Assembly (NCBI RefSeq): GCF_036826855.1
Contig: NZ_CP104578.1
Location: 3,224,001 to 3,288,000, forward strand
DNA length: 64,000 nt
Source of the DNA: Streptomyces sp. SJL17-4
GTDB taxonomy: Bacteria > Actinomycetota > Actinomycetes > Streptomycetales > Streptomycetaceae
Reading direction: 5' to 3'
Part shown: piece by piece, positions 636 through 51,345 of the stretch
Position numbering within the stretch: position 1 is the first letter of the stretch
How the letters are laid out: the number at the start of each line of letters is the position of its first letter
Position numbers and translations under genes: made by a program
The notes under the pieces: model-generated
Seen by the model: the letters and a program-made list of their open reading frames with translations, nothing else
The model's database searches: none
Told to the model about the DNA's origin: nothing

Positions 636-675
636 GCGTCACCGTCGCCGCGTCGCCGTCGCCGCGTCAGTGACC
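636..675. repeat. 14-bp tandem repeat overlapping the stop codon of the DUF1707 gene
   Basis: Units start at 636, 650 and 664: GCGTCACCGTCGCC, GCGTCGCCGTCGCC, then the gene end GCGTCAGTGACC. The TCA at 667-669 is the stop of the minus-strand DUF1707 gene, and another TCA recurs in the first unit. See the finding on stop-anchored repeats. Confidence 0.6.
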
Positions 676-1395
676 GAGATGCTTGCGCAGCTTGTCCTGG
701 AGGTCGGTGATCCACTTGCCGCGCTTGGGTCTCGCCTCGACGTTCCCGAAGACCGAGTAGCCGTTGATGACGACGACCGGGGCCTGCGGGTCGACGCCCT
801 CCAGGGTCACGACCTCGAAGTTGCCGAAGATCCCGCTGCCGTTGCCACGCAGGCTGATGTTCTCCGGGACCCGCACCTCCACGTTGCCGAAGATCGACGT
901 GGCATTGATGGTGGTCAGCCGCTGCGCGAAGATCGCCTCGGTCAGGTCGATCTCGATGTTCCCGAAGAGCGCGAACGCGTTCGTCCGGCGGCTCACGCGC
1001 CACCGCCCCTTGCGGGTGGTGCTGGAGAAGATCGCGACGAGGTTGGCCGGGGGGCCGTCGGCTCCCTCCGGGCCGTAGCCGTAGTCCGGCGCGGGCTCCT
1101 GGCGGGTCCGGGCGCCCGGCAGGTCACGGACGATCGGCTCCAGCTCCCCGACGGTCTTCGCCCGGTACACCGCGTCGATCCGGTCCGAGTGCTCCTCGGC
1201 GTCGATCCGCCCCTCGGCCAGGGCGTCCCTGAGGATGTCCGCGATCCGGTCCCGGTCCGCGTCCGAGGCCCGCAACGAGCCCTGTGGGTCGGCGAAGACG
1301 GTCTCCGCGGAGGCGGGCTCGGCAGGCTTGGCGGGCGCGGCCTGCCGCTGCGGCTCCGGCTGCATTTCGGGTTCGGGCTTCTTTTCGAGGTCCAC
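667..1395 (-). CDS. DUF1707 (SHOCT-like) domain protein with a LiaF-like C-terminal region
   Basis: The protein has 242 residues. Residues about 1-40 are a charged, Pro/Ala-rich leader. Residues about 40-95 carry the DUF1707 signature (LRASDADRDR, LAEGRIDAEEHSDRID, AKTVGELEPIVRDLP). The C-terminal half repeats an FGN motif (FALFGNIEIDL, SIFGNVEVRV, GIFGNFEVV, SVFGNVEA), like the beta-helical C-terminal domain of cell-wall stress proteins of the LiaF/VraT type. No transmembrane segment is obvious, so it is probably cytoplasmic or peripheral. A role in envelope stress is an inference from the fold. It faces away from the fumarase gene, so 1396-1613 holds divergent promoters. Confidence 0.8.
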   Translation of the reverse strand: MDLEKKPEPEMQPEPQRQAAPAKPAEPASAETVFADPQGSLRASDADRDRIADILRDALAEGRIDAEEHSDRIDAVYRAKTVGELEPIVRDLPGARTRQEPAPDYGYGPEGADGPPANLVAIFSSTTRKGRWRVSRRTNAFALFGNIEIDLTEAIFAQRLTTINATSIFGNVEVRVPENISLRGNGSGIFGNFEVVTLEGVDPQAPVVVINGYSVFGNVEARPKRGKWITDLQDKLRKHLGH

Positions 1396-1613
1396 GTCGC
1401 CAGCCTAGCGAAACGCGATAGATCGCGACCAGGGGGCGGGCCGGGCCCTGTGGACAAGGTCTCGAACCGGAAGCCGAAACACGCCACTCCGGCACGGTCC
1501 CCGCCCCAAGTGAGCCTTACCTCACAGGACCGCGCCCGGGCCCGCGTTCTACGCTGGAGGGCGCACTGCCAACGGAGGCGGTGCGCCGTCTTGCCGAGTG
1601 AGGAATGGCCCCC

Positions 1614-3284
1614 ATGCCAGAGTTTGCGTACTCCGATCTGCTCCCCCTGGGAGAGGACACCACGCCCTACCGCCTGGTGACCTCCGAAGGTGTCTCCACC
1701 TTCGAGGCCGACGGCCGTACGTTCCTCAAGGTCGAGCCGGAGGCGCTGCGCACGCTGGCCGCCGAGGCGATCCACGACATCCAGCACTTCCTGCGGCCGG
1801 CCCACCTGGCCCAGCTGCGCCGGATCATCGACGACCCGGAGGCGTCGAGCAACGACAAGTTCGTCGCGCTCGACCTCCTCAAGAACGCGAACATCGCCGC
1901 CGCGGGTGTCCTGCCCATGTGCCAGGACACCGGCACCGCGATCGTCATGGGCAAGCGCGGGCAGAACGTGCTGACCTCCGGCCGCGACGAGGAGGCCCTG
2001 TCCAAGGGCGTCTACGACGCGTACACCAAGCTCAACCTGCGGTACTCGCAGATGGCCCCGGTCACCATGTGGGAGGAGAAGAACACCGGCTCGAACCTGC
2101 CCGCGCAGATCGAGCTGTACGCGACCGACGGCGGCGCGTACAAGTTCCTCTTCATGGCCAAGGGCGGCGGCTCCGCCAACAAGTCCTTCCTCTACCAGGA
2201 GACGAAGGCCGTCCTCAACGAGGCGAGCATGATGAAGTTCCTGGAGGAGAAGATCCGCTCGCTCGGCACGGCGGCCTGCCCGCCGTACCACCTGGCGATC
2301 GTCGTCGGCGGCACGTCCGCCGAGTTCGCGCTGAAGACCGCGAAGTACGCCTCCGCGCACTACCTGGACGAGCTGCCCACCGAGGGCTCGGCCGAGACCG
2401 GCCACGGCTTCCGCGACAAGGAGCTCGAGGAGAAGGTCTTCGAGCTGACGCAGAAGATCGGCATCGGCGCGCAGTTCGGCGGCAAGTACTTCTGCCACGA
2501 CGTCCGCGTCGTCCGCCTCCCCCGCCACGGCGCCTCGCTGCCCGTCGCGATCGCCGTCTCCTGCTCGGCCGACCGCCAGGCCGTCGCGAAGATCACCGCC
2601 GAGGGCGTCTTCCTGGAGCAGCTGGAGACCGACCCGGCGCGCTTCCTGCCCGAGACGACCGACGCGCACCTCTCCGAGGAGAGCGATGTCGTCACCATCG
2701 ACCTCAACCAGCCGATGGACGACATCCTCGCCGAGCTGACCAAGTACCCGGTCAAGACCCGCCTCTCCCTCAACGGCCCGCTGGTCGTGGCGCGCGACAT
2801 CGCGCACGCCAAGATCAAGGAGCGCCTGGACGCGGGCGAGGAGATGCCGCAGTACCTGAAGGACCACCCGGTCTACTACGCGGGCCCGGCGAAGACCCCC
2901 GGGGGGTACGCCTCCGGTTCCTTCGGTCCGACGACGGCCGGCCGGATGGACTCGTACGTCGAGCAGTTCCAGGCGGCGGGCGGCTCCAAGGTCATGCTGG
3001 CCAAGGGCAACCGCTCGCAGCAGGTCACGAACGCCTGTGGCAGCCACGGCGGCTTCTACCTCGGCTCGATCGGCGGCCCGGCGGCGCGGCTCGCGCAGGA
3101 CTGCATCAAGAAGGTCGAGGTCGTCGAGTACGAGGAGCTCGGCATGGAGGCGGTCTGGAAGATCGAGGTCGAGGACTTCCCGGCGTTCATCGTGGTGGAC
3201 GACAAGGGCAACGACTTCTTCCAGAACCCGGCCCCGGAGCCGACGTTCACCCACATCCCGGTGCGGGGCCCCGGCCTCGGCTGA
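1614..3284 (+). CDS. Class I fumarate hydratase (Fe-S dependent)
   Basis: This enzyme reversibly hydrates fumarate to malate in the TCA cycle, in the cytoplasm, using a [4Fe-4S] cluster. The 556-residue single-chain form (fused alpha and beta parts) matches the family: N-terminal [12 protein letters not shown] and [15 protein letters not shown]-terminal [16 protein letters not shown], with the cluster cysteines in these blocks. I place the start at the ATG at 1614 because GAGTGAGGA lies at suitable spacing; the ATG at 1605 touches that ribosome site. A class II fumarase lies 7.7 kb away, so this genome carries both oxygen-sensitive and oxygen-stable forms. A GC hairpin follows the stop. Confidence 0.95.
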
Positions 3285-3305
3285 GACGCCCCCAGAACCA
3301 CCAGA

Positions 3306-3328
3306 GCCCCCGGCGCCCCGCCGGGGGC
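3306..3328 (+). terminator. Hairpin after the class I fumarase
   Basis: A perfect 9-bp stem (GCCCCCGGC / GCCGGGGGC) with a 5-nt loop lies 22 bp after the fumarase stop. Confidence 0.5.
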
Positions 3329-3444
3329 GGGCCCGTGGGTGGCGAGATGCGTCGCGGCGGGAACCCGCCGTTCCGCAAACGCTCCGACGCGTCGGCCCTC
3401 CGCCAGGATGGGCACGGGGCGGGCAGGCGGGAGGGGTGGCGGAC

Positions 3445-4460: not shown

Positions 4461-4492
4461 TCGCACAACAGGACGCCGCCGGAAGGACATCC

Positions 4493-8595: not shown

Positions 8596-9258
8596 ATGAG
8601 ACACCCCATACGGACCCTGGCCCCGGCCGCCGCCGCCCTGGCGGCGGGGCTGCTGCTCGCCGGCTGCGGCGACGTCGAGCCGATGCCCGAGGTCACGCAG
8701 GGCGCACGCCCCACGGCGGCACCCGCCACAGAGGCGGCGGCACCCGCCACGAAGGCGCCCGCGGCCGCCGCGTCGCACCTGACCGTCGGCGGTCCGGGGA
8801 CGGCCTGCGCACTGCCCGTCTCCTTCGGTGTGGCGGAGAAGTGGACGCCCAAGGCGATCGAGGACCCCGAGAACCCGGAGTTCGCGGCGTTCACCCGGCG
8901 GGGGCCGGCCACCATGCGCTGCGAGGTGGACGCCAAGCCGGCCGGTCACGTCGGCTTCCTGCGGGTCTGGACGTCCGGGAAGGGCTCGGCCAGGACGGCA
9001 CTCGAAGGGTTCGTGAAGGCCGAGCAGAACACCTCCGAGGTCACCTACAAGGAGGGCGCGTCCGGCGCGGGGCCCGTCACCGAGGTGACGTACACCGTCT
9101 ACAACGAGCTGATGGAGGAGTCGAAGGAGGAGCGCGCCTTCGCCGTCTCGACGCCGAAGGGGACGGTGATCGTGCACCTCGGCGGGCTCGACACCGCGGA
9201 GCACCGGGCGATGATCCCGGCCTACGAACTGGCCAGGAGCACGCTCAAGACACTGTGA
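8596..9258 (+). CDS. Putative lipoprotein, function unknown
   Basis: The 220-residue protein has a type II signal sequence with lipobox LLAG-C at about residues 20-24, an Ala/Pro/Thr-rich linker to about residue 55, and a compact mixed domain (ACALPVSFGVAEKW ... TVYNELMEESKEERAF ... VIVHLGGLDT). The cysteines at ACALP and MRCEV could form a disulfide. It is probably anchored to the outer face of the membrane. Nothing in it indicates an enzyme. Confidence 0.8.
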   Translation: MRHPIRTLAPAAAALAAGLLLAGCGDVEPMPEVTQGARPTAAPATEAAAPATKAPAAAASHLTVGGPGTACALPVSFGVAEKWTPKAIEDPENPEFAAFTRRGPATMRCEVDAKPAGHVGFLRVWTSGKGSARTALEGFVKAEQNTSEVTYKEGASGAGPVTEVTYTVYNELMEESKEERAFAVSTPKGTVIVHLGGLDTAEHRAMIPAYELARSTLKTL

Positions 9259-9284
9259 GCCCGCCCCCCGTGCCGAGCACGGCC

Positions 9285-9316
9285 GTGGCCCCCGTCCGAT
9301 CCCGGACGGGGGCCAC
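9285..9316. terminator. Bidirectional terminator between lipoprotein and GDSL lipase genes
   Basis: A perfect 14-bp stem (85-98 with 303-316 of this stretch) and a 4-nt loop, followed by GTTTCC, serves two convergent genes. Confidence 0.75.
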
Positions 9317-9341
9317 GTTTCCTGAAGGGACGGTACGTCGG

Positions 9342-10977: not shown

Positions 10978-12387
10978 ATGAACGACACAGACCAGGCCGA
11001 CGGTCACCGGATCGAGCACGACTCCATGGGTGAGGTGCGGGTCCCCGCGCACGCCAAGTGGCGGGCCCAGACCCAGCGGGCCGTGGAGAACTTCCCGGTC
11101 TCCGGGCAGCGCCTGGAGCGCGCCCACATCGAGGCCCTCGCCCGGATCAAGGCCGCCGCCGCCCAGGTCAACGCCGAGCTCGGCGTGATCGACAAGGACC
11201 GCGCCGAGGCCATCGCCGCGGCGGCCGCCGAGGTCGCCGAGGGGCGCTGGGACGAGCACTTCCCGGTGGACGTCTTCCAGACCGGCTCCGGCACCTCGTC
11301 CAACATGAACACCAACGAGGTGATCGCCACCCTCGCCACCGAGCGACTCCCCGAGGGCCGCGAGGTCCACCCCAACGACCATGTGAACGCCTCCCAGTCC
11401 TCCAACGACGTCTTCCCGTCCTCGATCCACATCGCGGCCACCGGAGCCGTCACCCGCGACCTGATCCCCGCCCTCGACCACCTGGCCGCTTCCCTTGAGC
11501 GAAAATCGGCCGAATTCGCGTCGGTGGTGAAGTCCGGCCGTACGCACCTCATGGACGCCACCCCGGTCACCCTCGGCCAGGAGTTCGGCGGCTACGCGGC
11601 GCAGGTCAGGTACGGCGTCGAGCGGCTGCGCTCGGCACTCCCCCGGCTCGCCGAACTCCCCCTCGGCGGTACGGCGGTGGGCACCGGCATCAACACCCCG
11701 GCCGGCTTCTCCGCGGCCGTCATCGCGGAGGTCGCCCGCGCGACCGGCCTGCCGCTGACCGAGGCCCGCGACCACTTCGAGGCGCAGGGCGCCCGGGACG
11801 CCCTGGTGGAGACGTCCGGGCAGCTCCGCACGATCGCGGTCTCCCTCACCAAGATCGCCAACGATCTGCGCTGGATGGCCAGCGGGCCCCGCACGGGACT
11901 CGCCGAGATCAACCTCCCCGACCTCCAGCCCGGCTCGTCGATCATGCCGGGCAAGGTGAACCCGGTGATCCCCGAGGCGGTCCTCATGGTCGCCGCGCAG
12001 GTGACCGGAAACGACACCACGGTGGCGGTGGCGGGCGCGGCCGGGAACTTCGAGCTCAACGTGATGCTCCCGGTGATGGCCAAGAACCTCCTGGAGTCCG
12101 TACGACTCCTGGCCAACGCGTCCCGGCTGCTCGCCGACCGCACGGTCGACGGGGTCACGGCCAACGTCGAGCGGGCCCGCGAGTACGCCGAGTCCTCGCC
12201 GTCCGTGGTCACCCCGCTGAACAAGTACATCGGCTACGAGGAGGCCGCCAAGGTCGCGAAGAAGTCGCTGGCCGAGCGGAAGACCATCCGCGAGGTGGTC
12301 CTGGAGTCCGGGTACGTGGAGCGCGGCGACCTGACGGTCGAGCAGCTGGACGAGGCGCTGGACGTGCTGCGGATGACGCGCCCGTGA
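10978..12387 (+). CDS. fumC: Class II fumarate hydratase
   Basis: The 469-residue soluble enzyme hydrates fumarate to L-malate without a metal cluster. Family blocks are present: [13 protein letters not shown], the active-site histidine region [15 protein letters not shown], and the signature [12 protein letters not shown]. The ATG at 10978 is preceded by two overlapping ribosome sites (AGGAGG and GAGGA). The upstream stretch is AT-rich for this genome (CTCATCTTTTAC), probably the promoter shared back to back with the lipase gene. The coding end merges into a diverged repeat family. Confidence 0.96.
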
Positions 12388-12478
12388 GAGAACGTGCCGC
12401 GGATGCGCTGCGGATGTGCCGCGGATGCGCTCGGACGACGCACCCGTGAGAGACGTGCTCGGATGACTCAACCGTGAT
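12362..12478. repeat. Diverged repeat family spanning the fumC stop codon
   Basis: Three copies of the gene end, each carrying an ACGTGCT/C...CGGATG...CCGTGA core, end in TGA at 12385-12387, 12447-12449 and 12475-12477. The middle copy is itself expanded, with TGCCGCGGATGCGCT present twice. The first copy is the fumC 3' end. Confidence 0.6.
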
Positions 12479-13223: not shown

Positions 13224-13337
13224 CGTCCTCCGCACGGCAGAGGCGGACCGAACGGCACGTCAGACCGATCGAGCAGCACGTCAACGACCGAACGCAGCAC
13301 AGGACCTGACCAGAAGTCATCCACGAGGGGGAGAGCA

Positions 13338-13502
13338 GTGCCGGACGTCTGCCCGGGTGTTCCGACGCCCGCCGGTGCCGCCGCTCGCGGAGCCCTCACA
13401 TCCACCGCACACAAGGGGTTTAGCCCCGCCGAAGGCGCGGCATCGGCGAGAAGAGCGAGTGCATCGCACCACCGGCCCGGACGGACGGAATCCCACGCGT
13501 GA
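13338..13502 (+). CDS. Candidate 54-residue leader ORF coupled to the phosphatase gene
   Basis: A GTG at 13338 follows a very good ribosome site (GAGGGGGAGAG). The frame stays open for 54 codons and its TGA overlaps the GTG start of the next gene (GTGA at 13499-13502). The peptide (VPDVCPGVPTPAGAAARGAL...) has no recognisable domain. Third positions are about 70 percent G/C, lower than neighbouring genes, and a tandem pair of rare AGA arginine codons occurs at codons 38-39. It may be a coupling leader peptide rather than a functional protein, or chance. Confidence 0.4.
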   Translation: MPDVCPGVPTPAGAAARGALTSTAHKGFSPAEGAASARRASASHHRPGRTESHA

Positions 13503-15454
13503 CGGAGCATCCCACCTCCCACGAAGGCCGGCAGCCCCTGGCTGCCCGGTCGCAGGAACGCGCGCGCCCTCGCCAGGAGGCGGCAGCCGGCCTGCCCTCC
13601 GACGTGCCCGCACAGCCGGGCGGGCCGGCGGCCACCGCGACCCCGGGCGCGGAAGCGCCCACGCCCCCGCCGCCCACGGCCCCCGGCGGCCCGGGAACCA
13701 TGGCCGTCGCCGTGTCGGCGCAGCTCCCGGGCGGCGGCCGCGGCGGGGACACCGTCGCACGGCGCGAGGGCGAGAAGCTCCGGTTCGTCGGGGCGGCGAC
13801 GCGGCGCATCGCGCGCGGCATCGACCTGGACGAGATCGTGCTCGGTCTGTGCCGGGCGACCGTGCCGACCTTCTCCGACGAGATCCTGGTCTATCTCCGC
13901 GATCCGCTGCCGGTGGGCGACGAGCGGCCGGTCGCGCCGTTCGTGTTGCGGCTGCGCCGCACGGACCGGCTCCGGTTAAGCGATCTGGAGGGCGAGGAGC
14001 TCGTCCTCGTACCCGATCCGGATCCGACCCCCGCGGCCGAACTCTGCGAGGTGCGGTCCGGTGGGGCACTGGCCGAGGTACTGCGGGGGGTGCGGCCGGT
14101 GTTCGGCGACTCCGCCGCCGCCAGGACCGCGCTGACCGAACTGCTCGGCCCGGACCATCCGCTGCCCGGCGGGCTGCGGGCCGTTCTCGCGCCGCTGCGC
14201 GGCCGGCGCCGGGTGATCGGCGCCGCCGTGTTCCTGCGCCGCCCGGAGCGGGCCGGTTTCGAGCCGAACGACCTGCTCGTCGCGGCGCAGTTGGCCACGC
14301 ACACGGCGCTCGGCATCGACAAGGCCGTCCTGTACGGCCGTGAGGCGTACATCGCGGACGAGCTCCAGCGGACGATGCTGCCGGACTCGCTGCCGCAGCC
14401 GACCGGCGTCAAGCTCGCCTCGCGCTATCTGCCGGCGGCCGAGACGGCCCGGGTGGGCGGCGACTGGTACGACGCGATCCCGCTGCCCGGCAGCCGGGTC
14501 GCGCTGGTCGTCGGTGACGTCATGGGCCACTCGATGACCTCGGCGGCGATCATGGGCCAGCTGCGCACGACCGCGCAGACCCTGGCCGGGCTCGACCTGC
14601 CGCCGCAGGAGGTCCTGCACCATCTGGACGAGCAGGCGCAGCGGCTCGGCGAGAACCGGATGGCGACCTGTATGTACGCGGTGTACGACCCGGTCTCGCA
14701 CCGGATCACCGTGGCCAACGCCGGTCATCCGCCGCCGATACTCCTCCACCTGGGCGGCCGTGCCGAGGTGCTGCGGGTGCCGCCGGGCGCCCCGATCGGG
14801 GTCGGCGGGGTGGACTTCGAGGCGGTCGAGCTGGACGCCCCGGCCGGTGCCACGCTGCTGCTCTACACGGACGGTCTGGTCGAGTCCCGGCTGCGGGACG
14901 TGTGGACCGGCATCGAGCAGCTGCGGGAGCGCCTCGCGGCGACGGCGCAGCTGACCGGGCCGGACCACTCGCCGCCCCTGGAGGCGCTCTGCGACGACGT
15001 CCTGGACATGCTGGGTCCCGGGGACCGGGACGACGACATCGCGCTGCTCGCGGCGCGGTTCGACGGCATCGCGCCGAGCGACGTGGCGTACTGGTTCCTG
15101 GAGCCGGAGGACGCGGCTCCGGGGCGGGCCAGGCGGCTCGCCCGGCGGGCGCTCGTCCGCTGGGACCTGGAGGAGCTGACGGACTCGGTCGAGCTGCTGA
15201 TCAGCGAGGTCGTGACCAACGCCGTGCGGTACGCGGAGCGGCCGGTGACGCTGCGGCTGCTGCGGACGGACGTGCTGCGCTGCGAGGTCGGCGACGACTC
15301 GCCGCAGCTGCCCCGGCAGCGGCGGGCGCGCGACACCGACGAGGGCGGGCGAGGTCTCTTCCTGGTGAACCGGCTGGCACGGCGGTGGGGGGCGACCCGG
15401 CTCTCGGGCGGCAAGGTGGTCTGGTTCGAACTGGCCACGCCGAGCCACCCGTAG
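13499..15454 (+). CDS. GAF-PP2C (SpoIIE)-HATPase regulatory phosphatase
   Basis: The 651-residue protein starts with a Pro/Ala-rich segment to about residue 85. A GAF-like sensor follows (about 95-285), then a SpoIIE-type PP2C phosphatase (about 290-530; VGGDWYDAIPL near residue 320, VVGDVMGHSMTSA, GHPPPILL, LLLYTDGLVESR, DDIALLAARF). A C-terminal HATPase kinase-like domain comes last (about 540-650; LLISEVVTNAVRYA, DEGGRGLFLVNRLARRWG). Such proteins usually control an anti-sigma or anti-anti-sigma partner switch. No partner genes lie next to it. The GTG start overlaps the stop of a small upstream ORF. Confidence 0.9.
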   Translation: MTEHPTSHEGRQPLAARSQERARPRQEAAAGLPSDVPAQPGGPAATATPGAEAPTPPPPTAPGGPGTMAVAVSAQLPGGGRGGDTVARREGEKLRFVGAATRRIARGIDLDEIVLGLCRATVPTFSDEILVYLRDPLPVGDERPVAPFVLRLRRTDRLRLSDLEGEELVLVPDPDPTPAAELCEVRSGGALAEVLRGVRPVFGDSAAARTALTELLGPDHPLPGGLRAVLAPLRGRRRVIGAAVFLRRPERAGFEPNDLLVAAQLATHTALGIDKAVLYGREAYIADELQRTMLPDSLPQPTGVKLASRYLPAAETARVGGDWYDAIPLPGSRVALVVGDVMGHSMTSAAIMGQLRTTAQTLAGLDLPPQEVLHHLDEQAQRLGENRMATCMYAVYDPVSHRITVANAGHPPPILLHLGGRAEVLRVPPGAPIGVGGVDFEAVELDAPAGATLLLYTDGLVESRLRDVWTGIEQLRERLAATAQLTGPDHSPPLEALCDDVLDMLGPGDRDDDIALLAARFDGIAPSDVAYWFLEPEDAAPGRARRLARRALVRWDLEELTDSVELLISEVVTNAVRYAERPVTLRLLRTDVLRCEVGDDSPQLPRQRRARDTDEGGRGLFLVNRLARRWGATRLSGGKVVWFELATPSHP

Positions 15455-15536
15455 CCGCGGCGAGGCCATAGCCGGAGCGAGGTCGTAGCCGCAGCGAGGT
15501 CGTAGCCGCAGCGAGGTCGTAGCCGCAGCGAGGTCA
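15452..15536. repeat. Five 17-bp tandem units starting at the phosphatase stop codon
   Basis: Units of the type TAGCCGCAGCGAGGTCG start at 15452, 15469, 15486, 15503 and 15520. The first TAG is the phosphatase stop codon. Because 17 is not a multiple of three, the five TAGs fall in all three frames. Confidence 0.85.
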
Positions 15537-21710: not shown

Positions 21711-21755
21711 GGGCGGCGGTTCCTGACACCCGGGGGGTCTCAGGAACGGCCGCCC
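21711..21755. terminator. Hairpin between the permease gene and oxyR
   Basis: GGGCGGCGGTTCCTGA (21711-21726) pairs with 21740-21755 with one mismatch across a 13-nt loop. The right arm belongs to the first 43-bp repeat unit, so repeat and terminator are built from the same sequence. Confidence 0.6.
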
Positions 21756-21910
21756 ACCACCCGTACCAGCGGGTCCCGGGCCTCAGGAACCGCCACCCAC
21801 CACCCGTACCAGCGGGTCCCGGGCCTCAGGAACCGCCGCCCACCACCCGTACCGGCGCGTCCCGGGGCTCAGGAGCCCCCGTCGAGCACCCGTACCGGCA
21901 GGCCCCGCAT
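21739..21910. repeat. 43-bp tandem repeat copying the 3' end of oxyR
   Basis: Three units (21739-21781, 21782-21824, 21825-21867) precede a fourth, more diverged copy that is the coding end of oxyR (from 21868). Each unit contains CTCAGGA, so each carries the TCA (TGA) stop and would encode an oxyR-like tail on the minus strand. Confidence 0.85.
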
Positions 21911-22822
21911 CGCGCCGCGCAACTCCGCAGCCAGCTCCTCGAATTCGGCGTGCCGGGCCGCGCCCGTCCGCATCGCGAGGGCGATCCGCCGGGCGGGCGC
22001 CGGTTCGGTGAAGAGCCCGGTCCACAGGGCGTTGTTACGGGCGGTCTCGACCGTGACGGCGGTGCGGGGCAGCAGGGTCACCCCGAGACCGCCGGCCACC
22101 AGCTGCACCAGGGTGGCGAGCCCCGCCGCCGTGGTGGTGACCTCGGCGCCGTCCGTGCGCCCGGCCTCACGGCAGATGTCGAGGGCCTGGTCACGCAGGC
22201 AGTGCCCCTCGTCGAGGAGCAGCAGCCGCAGCTCCTTGAGGGCCTCGCGCGGAATGTCGTCCCGGCCGGCCAGCGGGTGCCCCTGGGGCGTGACCAGCAC
22301 GAAGTCCTCGTCGAAGAGAGGAAGTTCGGTGACCCCGGGCACACCGAGGGGCACGGCGAGCAGCAGCAGGTCGAGCCGCCCGGCCGCCAGCCCGTCGAGC
22401 AGGGAGGAGGTCTGCTCCTCGTGGACCTGGAGGTCGAGGTCCGGGTAGCGGCGGTGTACCAGCCGCAGCACCGTCGGCAGCAGGTACGGGGCGACCGTCG
22501 GGATCACCCCGAGCCGCAGCACCCCGGTGAACGGCGCCTGGGCCGCCTCCGCCTCCTCCATCAGCTCCGCCACGGCGTCGAGGACCACCCGGGCGCGGAC
22601 CGCGAGCCGCTCCCCCGCGGGCGAGAGCAGCACCTTTCTCGTCGTACGCTCGAGGAGCTGGACACCGAGTGCCTCTTCGAGTGCCGACACCGCGCCCGAG
22701 AGTGCGGGCTGGCTCATGCCGATGGCGGCCGCCGCATCGCGGAAGTGGAGATGTTCGGCCACCGCCGAGAAGGCTCTGAGCTGGGACAGGCTGGGTTGTT
22801 TCACACGTCGTGCCGGGATCAC
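21869..22822 (-). CDS. oxyR: OxyR, LysR-family peroxide-sensing regulator
   Basis: The 317-residue protein has an N-terminal winged helix (SLSQLRAFSAVAEHLHFRDAAAAIGMSQPALSGAVSALEEALGVQLLER) and a LysR effector domain. Two cysteines nine residues apart (GHCLRDQALDIC) match the redox pair that forms the OxyR disulfide when peroxide is present. It is divergent from ahpC, its classical target, with about 130 bp between. The GTG at 22822 is chosen because AAGGTGG lies 6 nt before it; the GTG at 22804 is the alternative. The coding end is repeated downstream. Confidence 0.93.
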   Translation of the reverse strand: MIPARRVKQPSLSQLRAFSAVAEHLHFRDAAAAIGMSQPALSGAVSALEEALGVQLLERTTRKVLLSPAGERLAVRARVVLDAVAELMEEAEAAQAPFTGVLRLGVIPTVAPYLLPTVLRLVHRRYPDLDLQVHEEQTSSLLDGLAAGRLDLLLLAVPLGVPGVTELPLFDEDFVLVTPQGHPLAGRDDIPREALKELRLLLLDEGHCLRDQALDICREAGRTDGAEVTTTAAGLATLVQLVAGGLGVTLLPRTAVTVETARNNALWTGLFTEPAPARRIALAMRTGAARHAEFEELAAELRGAMRGLPVRVLDGGS

Positions 22823-24108: not shown

Positions 24109-24140
24109 CGTCACGTCCGGAGGTCACCCCCCGAGCGCGG

Positions 24141-24191
24141 TCACTTCTTCAGCGGGGTCACTTCTTCAGCGGGGTCACTTCTTGAGCGCGG
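24141..24191. repeat. 17-bp tandem repeat copying the end of the following minus-strand gene
   Basis: Two units of TCACTTCTTCAGCGGGG (from 24141 and 24158) precede the gene's own end TCACTTCTTGAGCGCGG (from 24175). Each unit encodes, on the minus strand, LKK plus a stop. Confidence 0.8.
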
Positions 24192-24849
24192 CCATGAGGG
24201 CCAGCATGTCCTGCGCGAGCGGGATCTCGATCCCGGAGAGGTCGATCGGTTTCGTCTCCCGGACGACCTCACCCGTGTCCTCGTCCCAGCTGGACATCGA
24301 GCTGAAGTTGATCTCGATCTCGACCTGCCCGTCGAGCACCAGAAGCTGTGCCCCGAACTCGCCGTCGATCTGCAGGTAGGCCTTCTCCCCCAGCCCTTCG
24401 TACAGCTCCATGTCGAACCGCTTGGCCCGGGCGTCGAACTCGGGCCCCGGGTCGGTCACCAGGTGCCGCGTGTACTCGACGCCCCCGCTGTATCCGGTCT
24501 CGGACGACCCGAACAGCACCGGGCAGTGCTGCGTCTCCAACGCCGGATCGGCGGTCGCCTCCCCCTCGGTGTCCGAGGACCGCTTGCCCAGGATGGTGCT
24601 GAGCGCCCCCAGCTCGGCCGTCTCGCAGAGATTTTCCACGGCCTTGTACCCCCGCATGTCCGGCCCGGGTTCCTCGCCCCGCTGGACGGCGTAGAGTCCC
24701 CCGCCCCACACCGCCGACGCCACCACCGCGCCGCCGAGCGCCCACAGCCAGGGCCGCCGCGCCCGGGGTGGACGCGGCGGCGGGGTCTCGGTGAGCACCT
24801 CGGGGTCGTCGAACTCCACCGCGCCCACGAGCTCGGGTTCCGATATCAC
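24175..24849 (-). CDS. Membrane-anchored protein of unknown function
   Basis: The 224-residue protein has a short acidic cytoplasmic N-terminus, a Pro/Arg stretch (PPPRPPRARRP), one transmembrane helix (about 28-50, WLWALGGAVVASAVWGGGLYAV) and an extracytoplasmic domain with two cysteines (NLCETAEL, QHCPVLFG) that could pair. I recognise no family. Its GTG overlaps the stop of the AI-2E transporter gene (GTGA), so the two are co-translated. Confidence 0.75.
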   Translation of the reverse strand: MISEPELVGAVEFDDPEVLTETPPPRPPRARRPWLWALGGAVVASAVWGGGLYAVQRGEEPGPDMRGYKAVENLCETAELGALSTILGKRSSDTEGEATADPALETQHCPVLFGSSETGYSGGVEYTRHLVTDPGPEFDARAKRFDMELYEGLGEKAYLQIDGEFGAQLLVLDGQVEIEINFSSMSSWDEDTGEVVRETKPIDLSGIEIPLAQDMLALMAALKK

Positions 24850-30148: not shown

Positions 30149-31186
30149 GTGACTGATTCCCGCCTGTACCGCGCCGCCGCGGACCGTTATGACGCCATGG
30201 AGTACCGCCGCTCGGGCCGCAGCGGCCTCAAGCTCCCCGCGATCTCCCTCGGCCTCTGGCACAACTTCGGCGACGACCGCGCGCTCGACACCCAGCGCGC
30301 GATCCTGCGCCGCGCCTTCGACCTCGGCGTCACCCACTTCGACCTGGCGAACAACTACGGGCCGCCGCCCGGCTCCGCCGAGCTGAACTTCGGCAAGCTC
30401 TTCGCCCAGGACTTCGCGCCCTACCGCGACGAGCTGATCATCTCCACCAAGGCCGGATACGAGATGCACCCCGGCCCGTACGGCGAGTGGGGCTCCCGCA
30501 AGTACCTGCTGTCCTCGCTCGACGCCTCCCTGAACCGGATGGGCCTCGACTACGTCGACATCTTCTACTCGCACCGCTTCGACCCGCACACCCCGCTGGA
30601 GGAGACGATGGGGGCCCTGGCCTCCGCCGTCCAGCAGGGCAAGGCGCTGTACGTCGGTGTCTCCTCGTACAACAGCGAGCAGACCGCCGAGGCCGCGCGG
30701 ATCCTGCGTGAGCTGGGTGTCCCGGCCCTCATCCACCAGCCCTCGTACTCGATGATCAACCGCTGGACCGAGGACGACGGCCTCCTCGACACGCTGGAGG
30801 ACGCCGGCATGGGCTGCATCTCCTTCGTGCCGCTGGCACAGGGGCTGCTCACCAACAAGTACCTGAAGGGCATCCCGGAGGGCTCGCGGGCCACCCAGGG
30901 CAAGTCCCTCGACCCGGACCTGCTCTCCGACGAGGTGCTGCGGCGGCTGCGCGGCCTCGCGGACATCGCGGGCCGGCGCGGGCAGTCGCTGGCGCAGCTG
31001 GCGCTGTCGTGGGTGCTGCGCGACGAGCGGATGACCTCGGCGCTGATCGGCGCGTCCAGCGTCGCCCAGCTGGAGGAGAACGTGGCCGCGCTCGCGGGTG
31101 CGCCGCTGACCTCGGACGAGCTGGCGGAGATCGACTCGTTCGCCGTGGACACCCAGGGCACGAACATCTGGGCCGGCCGGGGCTGA
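30149..31186 (+). CDS. Aldo/keto reductase (L-glyceraldehyde-3-phosphate reductase-like)
   Basis: The 345-residue NADPH-dependent reductase has the AKR barrel: GVTHFDLANNYGPPPGSAE (active-site Asp and Tyr), ISTKAGY (Lys), LDYVDIFYSHRFDP (His), LIHQPSYSMINRW, FVPLAQGLLTNKYL, SALIGASSVAQLEENVAAL. The long PPPGSAE insertion is typical of the YghZ/KCNAB-like subgroup, which detoxifies aldehydes such as methylglyoxal. Start GTG at 30149. Confidence 0.92.
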   Translation: MTDSRLYRAAADRYDAMEYRRSGRSGLKLPAISLGLWHNFGDDRALDTQRAILRRAFDLGVTHFDLANNYGPPPGSAELNFGKLFAQDFAPYRDELIISTKAGYEMHPGPYGEWGSRKYLLSSLDASLNRMGLDYVDIFYSHRFDPHTPLEETMGALASAVQQGKALYVGVSSYNSEQTAEAARILRELGVPALIHQPSYSMINRWTEDDGLLDTLEDAGMGCISFVPLAQGLLTNKYLKGIPEGSRATQGKSLDPDLLSDEVLRRLRGLADIAGRRGQSLAQLALSWVLRDERMTSALIGASSVAQLEENVAALAGAPLTSDELAEIDSFAVDTQGTNIWAGRG

Positions 31187-31204: not shown

Positions 31205-31268
31205 GGGCAGGCCCTGAGGGGATCCAGGGCAGGCCCTGACGGGATCCCGGGAGGCCCTGGCGAGACCC
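31205..31268. repeat. 22-bp tandem repeat just after the aldo/keto reductase stop
   Basis: Two 22-bp units (31205-31226, 31227-31248) and a third shortened one share GGGCAGGCCCTGA. They start 18 bp past the stop codon. Confidence 0.7.
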
Positions 31269-32321: not shown

Positions 32322-32738
32322 ATGGGGAAATGGGCGGACGGGACGGGGACGCTGGCGACCGACACGGTCCGGGCGGTGCCGCTGGAGGTGGCGGCCTCGT
32401 ACCGCGCGCGGCGGCGGGGACTGCTCGGGCGGGACGGGATCGCGGGGGCGATGCTCATCGTCCGGACGAACAGCGTGCACACCTTCGGGATGCGGTTCGC
32501 GATCGACGTGGCCTATCTGGACGGCTCGTTCACGGTCCGCTCCGTCGTGACGATGCGGCCGGGGCGGCTCGGCATGATCCGGCCGCGCGGCCGGCACGTC
32601 CTGGAGGCGGAGGCGGGCGCGATGGCGGACTGGGGGCTGCGGCCGGGGGTACGCGTGCGCGTGGAGACGGGCGGGGACGTGATCGGGGACGGGGACGGGG
32701 ACGGGGACCTCACGGCGGGCCCGAACCCAGCAGGGTGA
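32322..32738 (+). CDS. DUF192 family protein
   Basis: The 138-residue protein has DUF192 blocks (ARRRGLLGRDGIAGAMLIVRTNSVHTFGMRFAIDVAYLD, RHVLEAEAGAMADWGLRPG). Relatives are small beta-barrels of unknown function, sometimes linked to secretion. The C-terminus is a GDGDGDGD run made by a 6-bp repeat that overlaps the end of the convergent mannosyltransferase gene by 29 bp. Divergence from the prepilin peptidase gene suggests, but does not show, a link to pilus export. Confidence 0.82.
   Translation: MGKWADGTGTLATDTVRAVPLEVAASYRARRRGLLGRDGIAGAMLIVRTNSVHTFGMRFAIDVAYLDGSFTVRSVVTMRPGRLGMIRPRGRHVLEAEAGAMADWGLRPGVRVRVETGGDVIGDGDGDGDLTAGPNPAG
32685..32712. repeat. GGGGAC hexamer repeat abutting the mannosyltransferase stop codon
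   Basis: Four GGGGAC units run into CCTCA, where TCA (32710-32712) is the minus-strand stop. On the plus strand they encode the GD repeats of the DUF192 protein. Confidence 0.6.
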
Positions 32739-33864
32739 AGGCCCCGTACCCGGCGGAGGCGAGCGCGAGTCCGGCGAGGACCGGCACGGCGGTCCTGGTC
32801 CGCAGCCGCGCGAGGGCCACGGCGGGCGGGAGCAGCAGCCCGAAGGCGGGCATCATCAACCGGGGCCGGGAGCCGAAGTACGCGGCGCCGACGAGCGAGA
32901 CGAACACGACCCCGATCGTGTGGACGAGCACGGGCAGCGGCTGCCGCTGCCGTACGCAGAGGACGACCAGCCCGCCGAGCAGCGCGAGGGCCACGCAGAG
33001 GCCGAGGGCGGCGGGCCACGGCAGGCCCAGGATGAACCGGGCGAGGGCGACACCGCCGTCGATGGAGTTGCCCCAGGCGGCCTGAACCTCGAAGTACGCG
33101 GTCGGGCTCCCCTCACGGACACCGACGTACGCGATGTACGCGAGCCAGCCGAGCGGCGCGATCAGGACCCCGACGAGCGTCCGCAGGGGCAGTCGCCGGT
33201 CCCGTACGAGCGTGACGAGGGCGGTGATCCCGAGGGCGGCGATCAGCGCGACGGCCGTCGGCCGGGTGAGCCCGGCGGCCACGCACAGGGCGCCGGCCAG
33301 GATCCAGCGCCCGCGCAGGACGGCGTGGAGCGACCAGGCGGCGAGGGCGGTGAACAGCGTCTCCGTGTACGCCATCGACTGGACGAACGCGGTCGGGTAC
33401 ACGCCCCACAGAACGGCGAGCAGTACGCCGGCGCGTGCGCCGAAGGCCTGCTCGCCGCACTTGTACATGCCCCAGGCGGCGGCGAGCCCGGCGGTCCAGG
33501 ACACGAGCAGTCCCGCGGTGGCCGCGTCCAGCGGGAGGACGGCGGAGAGGCCGCGCTCCAGGGCCGGGAAGAGCGGGAAGAAGGCCAGGTCGGGGTGGAC
33601 GTCGCCGTTCGGCAGGGTGGTCTGGTACCCGTAGCCGTTCTCGGCGATCCGCACGTACCAGACGGAGTCCCAGCGGCCCTTGAGCCGGTGCAGCCCGTCC
33701 TCGCCGGTGACGGCGGAGGCGATCGCGAGGACCGCGAGGCCGATGAGGCGGGTGACGGCGTACCCGCCGACGGCGAGGACCACGGGGTCGACGGTGCGGA
33801 GGGTACGGAGGGGACGGATGACACGGGTGGGACTGCTGAGTGCGGGCGGGGACGGCGGGGACAT
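32710..33864 (-). CDS. Mannosyltransferase-family integral membrane protein
   Basis: The 384-residue protein has about ten transmembrane helices. Early RWDSVWYVRIAENGYGYQ and DLAFFPLFPALERGLSAVLPL match bacterial relatives of the GPI mannosyltransferase II/PIG-V family, in which an acidic residue of the first loop is catalytic and polyprenyl-phosphate-mannose is donor. The acceptor is unknown; glycolipids or glycoproteins are possible. Confidence 0.8.
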   Translation of the reverse strand: MSPPSPPALSSPTRVIRPLRTLRTVDPVVLAVGGYAVTRLIGLAVLAIASAVTGEDGLHRLKGRWDSVWYVRIAENGYGYQTTLPNGDVHPDLAFFPLFPALERGLSAVLPLDAATAGLLVSWTAGLAAAWGMYKCGEQAFGARAGVLLAVLWGVYPTAFVQSMAYTETLFTALAAWSLHAVLRGRWILAGALCVAAGLTRPTAVALIAALGITALVTLVRDRRLPLRTLVGVLIAPLGWLAYIAYVGVREGSPTAYFEVQAAWGNSIDGGVALARFILGLPWPAALGLCVALALLGGLVVLCVRQRQPLPVLVHTIGVVFVSLVGAAYFGSRPRLMMPAFGLLLPPAVALARLRTRTAVPVLAGLALASAGYGAFTLLGSGPP

Positions 33865-34445: not shown

Positions 34446-35366
34446 ATGTACGAGTTGGCGATCCTCGCGAGGGGCGGGGTCCTCCTGACGGTCTGGGCGG
34501 TCGCGGCGGGCTGGCCGCCGGGCCGCCTGACCGGCCGTCTGCGCGGGGACGGCTGGCAGCGGATCTGCCGGGGCGCGTGGGCGGCCCCGGGGAAGGAGGT
34601 GGACTGGCGGGTGCGGGCGACGGCCGTCCAGTTCCTGCGCCCGGAGTGGATGTGCAGCCACGGGACGGCGGCGCGACTGCACCGCATCGAGCGACTGGGG
34701 GCGACGGGACGGGTCGACCACCTGGAGTTCACGGCCCCGGCACCGGCCCGATCACTGTCCGGCGAGGGGATACGGGTCCACGGCACGAGGTTCCTGACGG
34801 CCGGGGACGGGTCGATACGACGGGGCCTGCGGACGACGACCGCCGTGCGGACGGTCGGCGACCTGATACGGGCCGCCGGCAGCCGGGAGGAGGCGGTGGT
34901 GGCCGCCGACTCGGCACTCGCGCGGCGGGCGGTCGAGGGGGTGCGGCGCGAGGCACTCGTCCGGTACGAGGACCTCACCGCCGAACTCGCGGCGCCCCGA
35001 CGGGGAGCGCCCCGCGCCCGTTCGTGGCTGCGGCTCGCCGAGCCGGCGTCGGGCTCACCGGCGGAGACCGTGGCGAGGCTGCGGATGGGGGACGCGGGCC
35101 TGTTCCCCGAGTCCCAGCCGATCCTGCGACCGGCGGCGGGACCGCCGCTGCGCCCGGACTTCCTGTTCCGCGCGGAGGGACTGGCCGTGGAGGTGGAGGG
35201 CTACGCCTTCCACGGCACCCGCCGCGCTCACGAACGGGACGTGGCCCGCTTCAACGCACTGCAGTCCTGCCCGGAGATCCGCCGGGTGCTGCGGTTCACG
35301 GCGGGCGAGGTCTTCCGGCACCCGGACCGGATGACGGCCACGATCAGGGCGGCGCTGACTCCCTGA
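34446..35366 (+). CDS. AbiEi-like / DUF559 (Vsr-like nuclease fold) protein
   Basis: The 306-residue protein has an N-terminal region like AbiEi antitoxin-type winged helices (ILARGGVLLTVWAVAAGW, LRGDGWQRICRGAWAAPG, WMCSHGTAARLHRI). The C-terminal DUF559-type endonuclease-like fold shows LRPDFLFRAEGLAVEVEGYAFHGTRRAHERDVARFNAL and VLRFTAGEVFRHP. The D...E-x-E pattern suggests metal binding as in very-short-patch nucleases. Role unknown; defence or genome maintenance is conceivable. The stop codon lies inside an 8-bp repeat. Confidence 0.7.
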   Translation: MYELAILARGGVLLTVWAVAAGWPPGRLTGRLRGDGWQRICRGAWAAPGKEVDWRVRATAVQFLRPEWMCSHGTAARLHRIERLGATGRVDHLEFTAPAPARSLSGEGIRVHGTRFLTAGDGSIRRGLRTTTAVRTVGDLIRAAGSREEAVVAADSALARRAVEGVRREALVRYEDLTAELAAPRRGAPRARSWLRLAEPASGSPAETVARLRMGDAGLFPESQPILRPAAGPPLRPDFLFRAEGLAVEVEGYAFHGTRRAHERDVARFNALQSCPEIRRVLRFTAGEVFRHPDRMTATIRAALTP

Positions 35367-35432
35367 CTCCCTGACTCCCTGACTCTCTGGCTCTCTGGCT
35401 CTCTGGCTCCCTGGCTCTCTGGCTCTCTGACG
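35355..35432. repeat. 8-bp tandem repeat spanning a stop codon
   Basis: Nine CTGACTCC/CTGGCTCT-type units run from 35355 to 35426, with a partial tenth. The first four carry TGA and one of these is the stop (35364-35366) of the preceding gene. Later units have GA changed to GG, so the array is graded. Confidence 0.9.
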
Positions 35433-43427: not shown

Positions 43428-44000
43428 TCACTCGTCCTCCTCGTCGGGCAGGGGCATGGTGGCGGTCTTCGTCACTTCGCCGAAGTCGTCCACGAACGGC
43501 ACGACGGAGGGGATGGTGACGGTGACGGAGACGGTGAACTCGTCGGCCCCCGGGTAGCTGACGACGACAGGATCGATCCAGCCGCTCACGGCGGCCGTGG
43601 CGGCCGCCCCGGCGTCCGGCCCGTCCTCCGCGTCGCTGCTCTCCGCGCGGGCCGCGGCACGGGCCGCCGTGCCCGCCTGCTGGGCGGCGTACGCGGCGAT
43701 GCCGAGCTGAAGCCCGGCGAGGCCGACGATCAGCAGGATGGGCAGGAAGCCGAGGTACTCGATGGCAGCCTGGCCACGGTCGCGGCCGCGTACAGGGGCC
43801 TGGCCTCGCTCGCGGCCTCTCACAGGAGCCTGGCCTCGGTCGCGGCCTCTCACGACGACGACGGCGGTCCGGCCACGGTCGCGGCCTCTCACGGCGGCGA
43901 CGGCGGCCGGGCCTCGCTCGCGGCCGCTCACGGCGGCGATGACAGCCCGGCCTCGGTCGCGCCGCTGCGAGCCCCGTCCCTCGCTCAGGTCTCTCCTCAT
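43428..44000 (-). CDS. TadE-like pseudopilin with expanded N-terminal repeat
   Basis: The 190-residue protein ends in a normal TadE-like unit: RDRGQAAIEYLGF, helix LPILLIVGLAGLQLGIAAYAA, and a beta domain. Ahead of it the leader is stretched by five R-D/E-R-G-x-A...V-R-G repeats (about residues 15-75), each resembling the prepilin cleavage region. Its ATG overlaps the stop of the upstream tadE-like gene (ATGA). It is probably a minor pilin or assembly protein. Confidence 0.88.
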   Translation of the reverse strand: MRRDLSEGRGSQRRDRGRAVIAAVSGRERGPAAVAAVRGRDRGRTAVVVVRGRDRGQAPVRGRERGQAPVRGRDRGQAAIEYLGFLPILLIVGLAGLQLGIAAYAAQQAGTAARAAARAESSDAEDGPDAGAAATAAVSGWIDPVVVSYPGADEFTVSVTVTIPSVVPFVDDFGEVTKTATMPLPDEEDE

Positions 44001-47892: not shown

Positions 47893-47974
47893 GGCCGTAC
47901 TACCTCGATCGGAGACGTGGGTCCGGGGCGGACGGGAGCGGGCGGTCGGAGGCGGGAGGAGGAGTGTTCACGAA

Positions 47975-48030
47975 GGGGGCGAGGCGGGGGGTCGGAGGGG
48001 GCGAGGCGGGGGGGCGGAGGGGGCGCGGGG
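47975..48030. repeat. 22-bp G-rich tandem repeat after the stop of the zinc-ribbon gene
   Basis: Units 47975-47996 and 47997-48018 (GGGGGCGAGGCGGGGGGTCG-type) and a partial third run up to the minus-strand stop at 48035-48037. Confidence 0.75.
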
Positions 48031-48034
48031 CTGC

Positions 48035-49066
48035 TCACGGCAGGGCACGGGTCGGGTTCACCTGCACGTTCACCGGGGTGAGCTGGGCGTACGACGAGGC
48101 CGGGTGGGCCGGGTGCGCGCCCGCCTGTGGGGTCGTCTGCGCTCCGGGCCCGAGTACGCGCGTGCCGCCGTCGCGCCCGCCGCCCCCGCCCCCGCCCCCC
48201 GAGCCGCCGGTCAGCGCGCGACCGCCCTGCTCCGGCACCGATCCGACCTGGAGGGGTGCCCCGCAGAAGCCGCAGCGGTCGCCGATGAGTTCCATCGCGC
48301 ACCAGTGGCAGGTCTCGCGCCGTACGGAGGAGACGAGCTGGTAGAGGACGGGCAGGTCGGGCAGGTACGCGGCGAACTCGACGAGCTTCCCCGTCCCCCA
48401 CCAGCGGGGCGAGGCCTCGGGCAGCGGTGTCTCCAGGACGGCGCCCTGGATCCGCCACCCGGGCACGAGCGTGGTCGTGGGCCAGTCGGTCTGGAGCTGG
48501 CCCCGGGCGAGCAGGAGCTCGGTGGTGAACTCCGGTCCCGGAAGGGCCACCTCCCCGCTGCCGACGCGGGTGATCTGCGCGGTGGGTCCGGCGAGTACGG
48601 CGAAGTGGGCGCCGGGCAGCCAGCCCTTGAGGTGGGAGCCGAGGCTGACGGGGACGCGGTCGAGCCGGGAGACGGAGCCGAGGACGGCGCCGGCGTAGAT
48701 GTAGTGGGCGAGCAGCCGGGCGGCGGAGGCGAGGACGCCGGGGCTGAAGTCGCAGCCCGCCAACTGCCGGAGCTGGCGGACGAGTACGGCCGCTCCGAGG
48801 GGTGGCAGGTCGGTTCCGACCAGGGCGATCCGGTCGCTTTCGAGCAGGGCGCGGACGGCGCGCAGTCGTTGCTCGACGGCGGGCGGGGCGGAGGTGGGGC
48901 AGACGACGACCACGTGTCCGTACCGCGCGAGGAGCTGCTGCATGTCGGCGATCGAGGCGTCGAGCGACTGGGTGTCGGGGGCCGGGAGGACGGTGGCGTG
49001 CGGGGTCCCGGGGTCGGTCGGCGGCAGCGCCAGGTCGGCACTGGTGACCGCGATCGCTGTCGGCAC
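48035..49066 (-). CDS. Zinc-ribbon protein at the head of the Tad locus
   Basis: The 343-residue protein has an N-terminal alpha/beta region with a hydrophobic strand (YGHVVVVCPTSAPPAV), a middle domain (GWLPGAHFAVLAGPTAQITRVG, WWGTGKLVEFAAYLPDLPVLYQL) and a C-terminal CHWC...CGFC zinc ribbon. A Gly-rich tail follows. It is read in the same direction as cpaB, 142 bp upstream of it. I recognise no named family; a regulatory or assembly role in the pilus locus is an inference from position. Confidence 0.7.
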   Translation of the reverse strand: MPTAIAVTSADLALPPTDPGTPHATVLPAPDTQSLDASIADMQQLLARYGHVVVVCPTSAPPAVEQRLRAVRALLESDRIALVGTDLPPLGAAVLVRQLRQLAGCDFSPGVLASAARLLAHYIYAGAVLGSVSRLDRVPVSLGSHLKGWLPGAHFAVLAGPTAQITRVGSGEVALPGPEFTTELLLARGQLQTDWPTTTLVPGWRIQGAVLETPLPEASPRWWGTGKLVEFAAYLPDLPVLYQLVSSVRRETCHWCAMELIGDRCGFCGAPLQVGSVPEQGGRALTGGSGGGGGGGGRDGGTRVLGPGAQTTPQAGAHPAHPASSYAQLTPVNVQVNPTRALP

Positions 49067-49299
49067 GTCGGACCCCCCGTCCCCTCCGGCCTCCGGTGTC
49101 CCGGGAGCCGTGGATCACTTACCGCGTTCACGGCATCACCGCAGGGTGCTGCCGCCTCTGCACCTTATCCGCGTCCCCCGGGGTGGTGAACACACAATCC
49201 GCCAAGCTGTCCCGCTTTCTCGGGGATCCGGAGGCCGGACCCGCCGAGCCTGTGCGCGCTGCTGTCACCCGCTCCGAACAGGGCTTGCTGCCAGAGGTC

Positions 49300-49328
49300 T
49301 TGACAACACGATTGGTCTGGACCAACTT
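49300..49328 (+). promoter_or_regulatory. Chitinase promoter with DasR-type operator
   Basis: A -35 TTGACA (49300-49305) and a weak -10 CAACTT (49323-49328) at 17-bp spacing enclose ATTGGTCTGGACCAACT (49311-49327). Its core TTGGTC-TG-GACCAA is a perfect palindrome and matches the published DasR responsive element of Streptomyces chitin genes at most positions. DasR bound here would block RNA polymerase until N-acetylglucosamine 6-phosphate rises. Confidence 0.8.
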
Positions 49329-49379
49329 GTCCCCACAGCGGTGGCCACCGCCCGCACGCCCCGTACGCCCCGTACCGCC

Positions 49380-49530
49380 CGCACCTCCCGCACCTCCCGC
49401 ACCTCCCGCACCTCAGGCAGCCTCTGCACCCCCATACCCCCCGTACCGCCTCGTACCCCCGTACGAGCCCCTCCGTACGACGACGTACGGCACCTCCACA
49501 TCCCCCACATCCCCAACTCCCCTCCGGAGG
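49380..49530 (+). promoter_or_regulatory. C-rich repetitive leader of the chitinase mRNA
   Basis: Four CCCGCACCT-type 9-bp units (about 49378-49412) and several CGTAC-containing pieces fill the leader between promoter and start. CACCTCC units are complementary to the GGAGG ribosome site at 49526-49530, so they could pair with it. Between 49067 and 49299 I see nothing else. Confidence 0.4.
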
Positions 49531-49536
49531 ATGCAC

Positions 49537-51246: not shown

Positions 51247-51274
51247 CGGAACGATCCCGCTCCCCGCACCACCC

Positions 51275-51304
51275 GCGGCGCCGCCGGTCTCCCGGCGGCG
51301 CCGC
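51275..51304. terminator. Terminator between chitinase and kinase genes
   Basis: A perfect 13-bp stem (GCGGCGCCGCCGG and complement) with loop TCTC, 28 bp past the chitinase stop. Confidence 0.75.
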
Positions 51305-51310
51305 GTCGTT

Positions 51311-51345
51311 TCACCTGGGCCTCAGGCGTCGGGCCTCACCTGGGC
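51311..51345. repeat. 25-bp duplication of the kinase gene end
   Basis: TCACCTGGGC occurs at 51311 and again at 51336, where TCA is the kinase stop. The 25-bp offset puts the copied stop in another frame. Confidence 0.55.

Follow-up and report, generated by a model that had tools for sequence, protein, structure and literature searches.

Mostly private tandem repeat arrays at the ends of Streptomyces genes, probably minisatellites that survive where duplication is harmless

Arrays at gene ends in the window and beyond

The window analyzed here (the whole 64-kb stretch G000:C1:3224001-3288000, part of an 8.54-Mb single-contig Streptomyces genome, hereafter the own genome) carries short tandem repeats at the ends of genes (Table 1). 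Among its 59 complete genes, 11 have a TRF array (score of at least 50) over the stop codon or within 20 bp of it. A preliminary description had listed ten stop-anchored repeats. Nine of these are TRF arrays that overlap the stop or lie no more than 18 bp from it, and the stop codon itself is covered at five of the ten loci; the tenth, at the kinase gene, gave no TRF call even at a score of 30. Two similar arrays had been overlooked. At the 24.2-kb gene the stop is copied in every unit, and the LysR/oxyR gene is convergent with an FtsX-domain gene.

Table 1. Tandem repeats at gene ends in the window (window coordinates; copy number after the multiplication sign).
Repeat	Position	Strand	Gene and relation to its stop codon	Basis
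14-bp array × 2.5	635..669	-	over stop of DUF1707 gene (667-1395 -)	TRF, Pfam
23-bp array × 2.3	9265..9318	+	6 bp past stop of gene 8596-9258; absent from preliminary list	TRF
22-bp array × 2.0	12394..12435	+	6 bp past stop of fumC (10978-12387)	TRF, Pfam
17-bp array × 5.1	15450..15535	+	over stop of SpoIIE-type phosphatase gene (13499-15454); convergent region	TRF, Pfam
43-bp array × 4.0	21735..21907	-	over stop of LysR/oxyR gene (21869-22762 -)	TRF, Pfam
17-bp array × 3.4	24134..24191	-	over stop of gene 24175-24849 (-), the 24.2-kb gene	TRF
22-bp array × 2.5	31205..31259	+	18 bp past stop of aldo/keto reductase gene (30149-31186)	TRF, Pfam
6-bp array × 6.2	32672..32708	-	1 bp past stop of mannosyltransferase-labelled gene 32710-33864 (-), PMT_2 match below cut-off	TRF
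8-bp array × 9.6 (alternative reading 24 bp × 3.2)	35355..35431	+	over stop of DUF559/REase-like gene (34446-35366)	TRF
22-bp array × 2.4	47974..48025	-	9 bp past stop of "zinc-ribbon" gene 48035-49066 (-)	TRF
10-bp direct repeat, 25-bp spacing	51311..51345	-	over stop of kinase gene (51336-52730 -)	read by eye, Pkinase
23-bp array × 1.9	63912..63955	+	6 bp past stop of gene 63504-63905; absent from preliminary list	TRF

Pfam supports the gene labels DUF1707, FumaraseC, SpoIIE, Aldo_ket_red, LysR, and Pkinase. Support is weaker, with matches below the Pfam cut-off, for the mannosyltransferase and DUF559-like labels, and the 24.2-kb and "zinc-ribbon" (48-kb) genes have no Pfam match. The window also holds arrays within genes, namely 30-bp and 39-bp arrays at 43767-43961 in a called TadE-like gene (43428-44000, minus strand) and a 66-bp array (2.5 copies) at 51707-51870 in the kinase gene, all with units divisible by three.

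Our own-genome sample comprises 1.264 Mb, i.e., the window, where the pattern was first seen, and 1.2 Mb added beyond it, with genes called by a custom codon-usage script and their starts approximate. It contains 205 intergenic arrays scoring at least 50, whereas five dinucleotide shuffles average 8.6; 114 of the 205 lie in tandem, 60 in convergent, and 31 in divergent regions (shuffles: 4.2, 3.2, and 1.2). An array is present at the stop in 145 of 1119 genes and at the start in 27 of 1119. Arrays scoring at least 80 are densest in convergent regions (1.32 per intergenic kb), followed by tandem (0.73) and divergent (0.25) regions, and the same order emerges when 80 SpoIIE loci are pooled at a score of at least 50 (2.16, 1.10, and 0.41). 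This usual order is absent in G012 and G013, which have few arrays (convergent vs. divergent, 1.41 vs. 1.48 and 1.46 vs. 1.58 per kb). Other 100-kb samples, taken for taxonomic spread, had few arrays, too few to support a claim: per intergenic kb, arrays scoring at least 50 numbered 0.93 (G026) and 0.61 (G033) within the same taxonomic order, and 0.05 (G077), 1.01 (G070), 0 (G051), and 0.55 (G048) in four further samples. None occurred in the 53 intergenic regions (22.6 kb) of G007:C1:5000001-5100000 (L200-L204; Streptomyces genus, GC 0.686).

Units are unrelated between loci, as first described, with 6 similar pairs among 173 units vs. 4 after shuffling. MIRUs, the repeat units known from mycobacteria, overlap with stop and start codons. 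Units of the MIRU type (named in PMC2734929) resemble ours as intergenic tandem units in an actinomycete, but they constitute one dispersed sequence family, and a shared family of this kind is ruled out here by the count of similar pairs. The further claim that most units are not multiples of three stands at nine of the ten listed loci but is weak genome-wide, where it applies to 105 of the 190 intergenic arrays scoring at least 60 in the 1.264-Mb sample (units of 6–106 bp); the other 85 of 190 exceed one third. Inside CDS of the own genome, units are divisible by three in 321 of 342 arrays scoring at least 50.

The arrays thus have the form of minisatellites, with head-to-tail units of about 6–100 bp occurring beyond chance. 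Bacterial minisatellites and VNTR are portrayed in the relevant passages of "Satellites in the prokaryote world" (PMC6749651) in like terms, as units of 10–100 bases repeated head to tail that are locus-unique and either non-coding or, in genes, divisible by three. That survey, which lists S. coelicolor with 38 satellites, counts only arrays of at least four units, whereas most arrays here have two or three copies.

Array position relative to the stop codon

Arrays are enriched near stop codons over other intergenic positions, the point on which the preliminary description turned. Of the 112 arrays in tandem regions of at least 100 bp, 52 are no more than 20 bp from a stop (26.5 expected under uniform placement, sd 4.2); in convergent regions of this length, the figure is 30 of 47 against 26.6 expected. 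The tandem excess is what a mutational hotspot would produce, i.e., if duplications near stops were favored by what happens as translation or transcription finishes (e.g., R-loop formation, or polymerases colliding behind the last ribosome). Convergent regions, however, show little of it, and on all the evidence, including that presented below, we regard a hotspot as unlikely.

Array cover drops almost to zero near starts. For tandem regions, with 160 bp or more left to the next start, cover is 0.134 at 0–15 bp past the stop, rises to 0.195 at 15–30 bp and 0.189 at 30–60 bp, and then declines to 0.138 (60–100 bp), 0.110 (100–160 bp), and 0.093 (160 bp and beyond). The 5′-edge, unit-edge, and stop-spanning counts given next, like the frame and second-stop counts further below, come from a pooled set of 2704 ends (own genome, seven other Streptomyces genomes, and the 80 SpoIIE loci), in which each convergent-region array is entered once per gene end and the 80 loci are mutually homologous. 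In its tandem regions, with a 60-bp guard kept before the start, array 5′ edges number 39 per 19.0 kb at -20 to 0 bp from the stop, 45 per 17.2 kb at 0–20 bp, 15 per 15.4 kb at 20–40 bp, 43 per 35.0 kb at 40–100 bp, and 15 per 39.9 kb at 100–220 bp. Selection to cover the stop codon itself was considered and rejected, as cover is not clearly above that under uniform placement: at a score of at least 50, 27 arrays cover it in tandem regions (18.5 expected, sd 3.7) and 18 in convergent regions (19.8, sd 2.8), and at a score of at least 80 the counts are 16 (12.3, sd 3.1) and 15 (17.2, sd 2.5), so that only the first of these is raised.

Measured in units, the arrays obey a simple first-copy rule, in that they start no more than about one unit before the stop. 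Specifically, for 160 arrays with units not divisible by three (in regions with at least 120 bp of room), 5′ edges set in abruptly at one unit before the stop, with 3 in [-2,-1), 29 in [-1,0), 35 in [0,1), and 12 in [1,2) units from it. An onset at exactly this point is the prediction of selection alone, and argues against a hotspot. Among stop-spanning arrays, only 7 of 85 with units not divisible by three begin more than one unit upstream (50.9 expected at random), as do 3 of 33 with divisible units (20.5 expected), although the rule is partly open to artefact given that the first in-frame stop defines the end of an ORF. Protein ends bear on that artefact. In all 35 comparisons where an array spans the stop (19 genes from three genomes, some of them entering twice), the protein ends within two residues of its ortholog, and without arrays such agreement is found in 95% of 711 comparisons. 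Because the ends agree in 35 of 35, the old stop has been kept rather than made by the array, which rules out arrays that create the stop.

The copied stops raise the possibility, offered in the preliminary description, that arrays are selected as backup stop codons. A second in-frame stop within 10 codons does occur in 20.7% of the 87 ends whose stop is covered by an array, compared with 14.4% of 764 ends without an array, but copying alone would give more second stops in stop-covering ends, and the proportion is only 4.4% of 91 where the array starts 0–30 bp past the stop. Stop-copying arrays show no frame preference (32, 37, and 43 with unit lengths of 0, 1, and 2 modulo 3), and copied stops are not in-frame above chance, as tandem backup stops would be. 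Ho and Hurst likewise report that in eubacteria fail-safe stops lack evidence of selection (PMC6764699). We therefore consider this function highly improbable.

Turnover between related species

The SpoIIE gene illustrates how narrowly arrays are distributed. The 80 loci returned for it are all Streptomyces by title except one, [Kitasatospora] papulosa, and the nearest is from S. flavochromogenes (98% protein identity in the best segment); two were dropped as the gene was not found, leaving 78 compared, of which one (L095) is probably from the same genome as the relative G004. An array scoring at least 50 is present at the SpoIIE 3′ end in 12 of these 78 loci (18 at a score of at least 40), and none of the 144 between-species unit pairs reaches 90% identity. 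The 17-bp array of the window is missing from G015, from G004, and from every one of the 78 loci, where the best match to its unit is 0.69 and shuffled units reach 0.88. Another array, upstream of the SpoIIE gene at a distance of about 200 bp (13246-13300), has a related 21-bp array in G004; this shared pair looks homologous rather than recurrent, and would be among the few conserved between species.

A broader comparison used the two relatives G015 and G004 (93–94% median coding identity to the own genome) over G000:C1:3144001-3368000. In 93 orthologous regions, arrays are found in the own genome only in 19, in G015 only in 3, in both in 10, and in neither in 61; for G004 the figures are 15, 4, 8, and 52 of 79. 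Array-bearing intergenic regions are thus about twice as numerous in the own genome (29 vs. 13 for G015 and 23 vs. 12 for G004), and the own-only excess is marked (19 to 3, P = 0.0009; 15 to 4, P = 0.019). Arrays inside genes, by comparison, are equally common (0.315 per CDS kb in the own genome vs. 0.327 and 0.328 in the relatives). Co-occurrence at the same regions slightly exceeds prediction from class and length (10 vs. 6.8, P = 0.025; 8 vs. 4.6, P = 0.014), an excess that a hotspot would explain.

Individual loci show the single-copy state from which arrays could arise. By alignment, the 17-bp unit at gene 24175 is single-copy in both G015 and G004, and G004, the relative compared for the DUF559-like gene, has about one copy of that gene's 8-bp unit, with the protein end unchanged; the 43-bp LysR/oxyR array corresponds to about one unit in the relatives. 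Conversely, at the FtsX-gene stop G015 carries a private 22-bp duplication whose sequence is single in the other two genomes. Of 53 array-by-relative comparisons, 24 yielded a single match to the unit, 5 yielded two or more, and 24 yielded none. As the unit is absent in 24 of 53 and a shuffled unit finds at least one match in 12 of 53, many ancestral states are no longer readable. At single-copy sites, the microhomology that could seed a duplication has a mean run of 3.55 vs. 2.83 (6 of 11 sites; small sample). In these between-species comparisons, arrays are mostly lineage-specific, and their presence and copy number shift quickly among related genomes, in the manner of minisatellites.

Gene-end structure, ordinary indels, and the origin of the arrays

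The preliminary description had also offered 3′-end processing. If arrays were selected for 3′-end formation, they would act as hairpin terminators, Rho-loading sites, or 3′ exonuclease barriers; they do lie where terminators lie, and of the 40 stems of at least 8 bp at array-bearing convergent ends, 19 overlap an array. Yet stems of this length are found in 50% of 80 array-bearing ends vs. 62% of 74 array-free ends, and folding relative to shuffles is less stable for arrays (median z -0.70, n = 136) than for array-free 3′ segments (-1.12, n = 258). C-over-G skew does not differ between the compared ends (P = 0.25), and no Rfam family reaches threshold in the window. Hairpin terminators and C-over-G skew were rejected for lack of support in the stem, folding, and skew counts, and with no excess of stable stems the arrays would not be grouped with terminators or structured 3′ elements. 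As predicted from sequence, then, neither the hairpin nor the Rho form appears to apply, and since the array is also missing from most orthologous regions we find selection for 3′-end formation very unlikely.

What remains to be explained is placement near the stop, and here ordinary change provides the control. The control set comprised 140 pairs of orthologous regions free of arrays, drawn from three genomes, and excluded regions shorter than 30 or longer than 900 bp (shorter than 20 bp in the relative), those with any array scoring at least 40, and those aligned over less than 55%. In tandem regions, indels per 100 bp number 3.05 at 0–20 bp past the stop, a peak that gap placement at the CDS edge may sharpen, then 0.94 at 20–40 bp, 1.75, 1.99, and 1.35 in the following three 20-bp bins; past 100 bp the values are 0.72, 0.97, and 0.83. 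The corresponding convergent-region values are 6.57 (0–20 bp) and 3.78 (20–40 bp). Mismatches are likewise more frequent at 0–20 than at 20–40 bp past the stop (tandem, 0.113 vs. 0.077; convergent, 0.199 vs. 0.060). Array starts fall about 7-fold from 0–20 to 100–220 bp and indels about 3.6-fold from 0–20 to 100–250 bp, i.e., the array profile follows the shape of the indel profile, but with a stop bias about twice as steep. Because ordinary indels also peak 0–20 bp past the stop in array-free regions, no stop-specific process is needed, and free change in the first 20 bp is enough for most of the array placement.

We conclude, with a probability of roughly 0.85, that the arrays are private, fast-turning minisatellites that arise as duplications and survive where they are harmless. 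The earlier suggestion that slippage is tolerated only past stops finds support in the placement rule, the turnover between species, and the indel control, with slippage as the mutational step, and neutrality, being what we infer from these patterns. Local tandem duplications would arise over the whole genome, most simply via replication slippage; variable segments flanked by repeats have been ascribed to slippage between short repeats (PMC2884548). A duplication would survive only if it neither changed a protein nor disturbed a promoter or ribosome-binding region. A unit spanning the stop should be harmless, as the original stop stays in the first copy and the remainder falls behind it, and the first 20 bp past the stop would be the intergenic part most tolerant of ordinary changes. 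Such a filter would concentrate arrays in the stretch that begins one unit ahead of the stop and extends some 100 bp beyond it, above all between convergent genes, so that anchoring on the stop would mark the edge of coding constraint, with no stop-specific device required.

Several observations fit this tolerance model less well: the twofold stop bias of arrays over indels, the slightly high co-occurrence at orthologous regions, the divergent regions of G012 and G013 (as array-rich as the convergent ones, on few arrays), the surplus of intergenic units divisible by three, and a seed microhomology signal that is not clear. A hotspot, if real, would account for the twofold bias and the recurrence at orthologous regions; it might also explain why the own lineage has a doubled load. 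The peak of indels and mismatches at the same place nevertheless speaks against it.

Known systems share parts of this pattern. In the passages of PMC2734929 that describe it, the Mycobacterium tuberculosis rnc-fpg1 array begins 40 bp past the rnc stop, varies among strains, and is missing in related species; its repeats were linked to expression of the downstream gene. Borg tandem repeats, as characterized in sections of PMC9879509, also have independent origins, evolve fast, and have units that are divisible by three within genes but mostly indivisible by three in intergenic positions; their units are perfect and A-rich and belong to archaeal elements, whereas those here are GC-rich and imperfect, with placement measured relative to stops. 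Such placement is not reported in the consulted passages of the minisatellite survey or the rnc-fpg1 study (PMC6749651, PMC2734929). Within the parts of the open-licence PMC literature covered, we found no report of bacterial minisatellites collecting at stop codons, which does not establish its absence in print.

If the tolerance model holds, a striking genome-wide pattern with a simple, measurable rule (array start no more than one unit before the stop) would follow from mutation and purifying selection. The first-copy rule offers a null model for claims of function for gene-end repeats, and the arrays provide many candidate variable loci for Streptomyces strain typing. A mutational cause for the small residual excess at stops, if established, would make gene ends places where DNA is unstable.

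Separately, a small dispersed GC-rich repeat family occurs in G000:C1:6200001-6400000, where it is common to the arrays at 6306894 and 6347407. One unit of this family used as a query gave 15 short matches in the sample, none of them inside called genes and 10 of them in 6200001-6400000.
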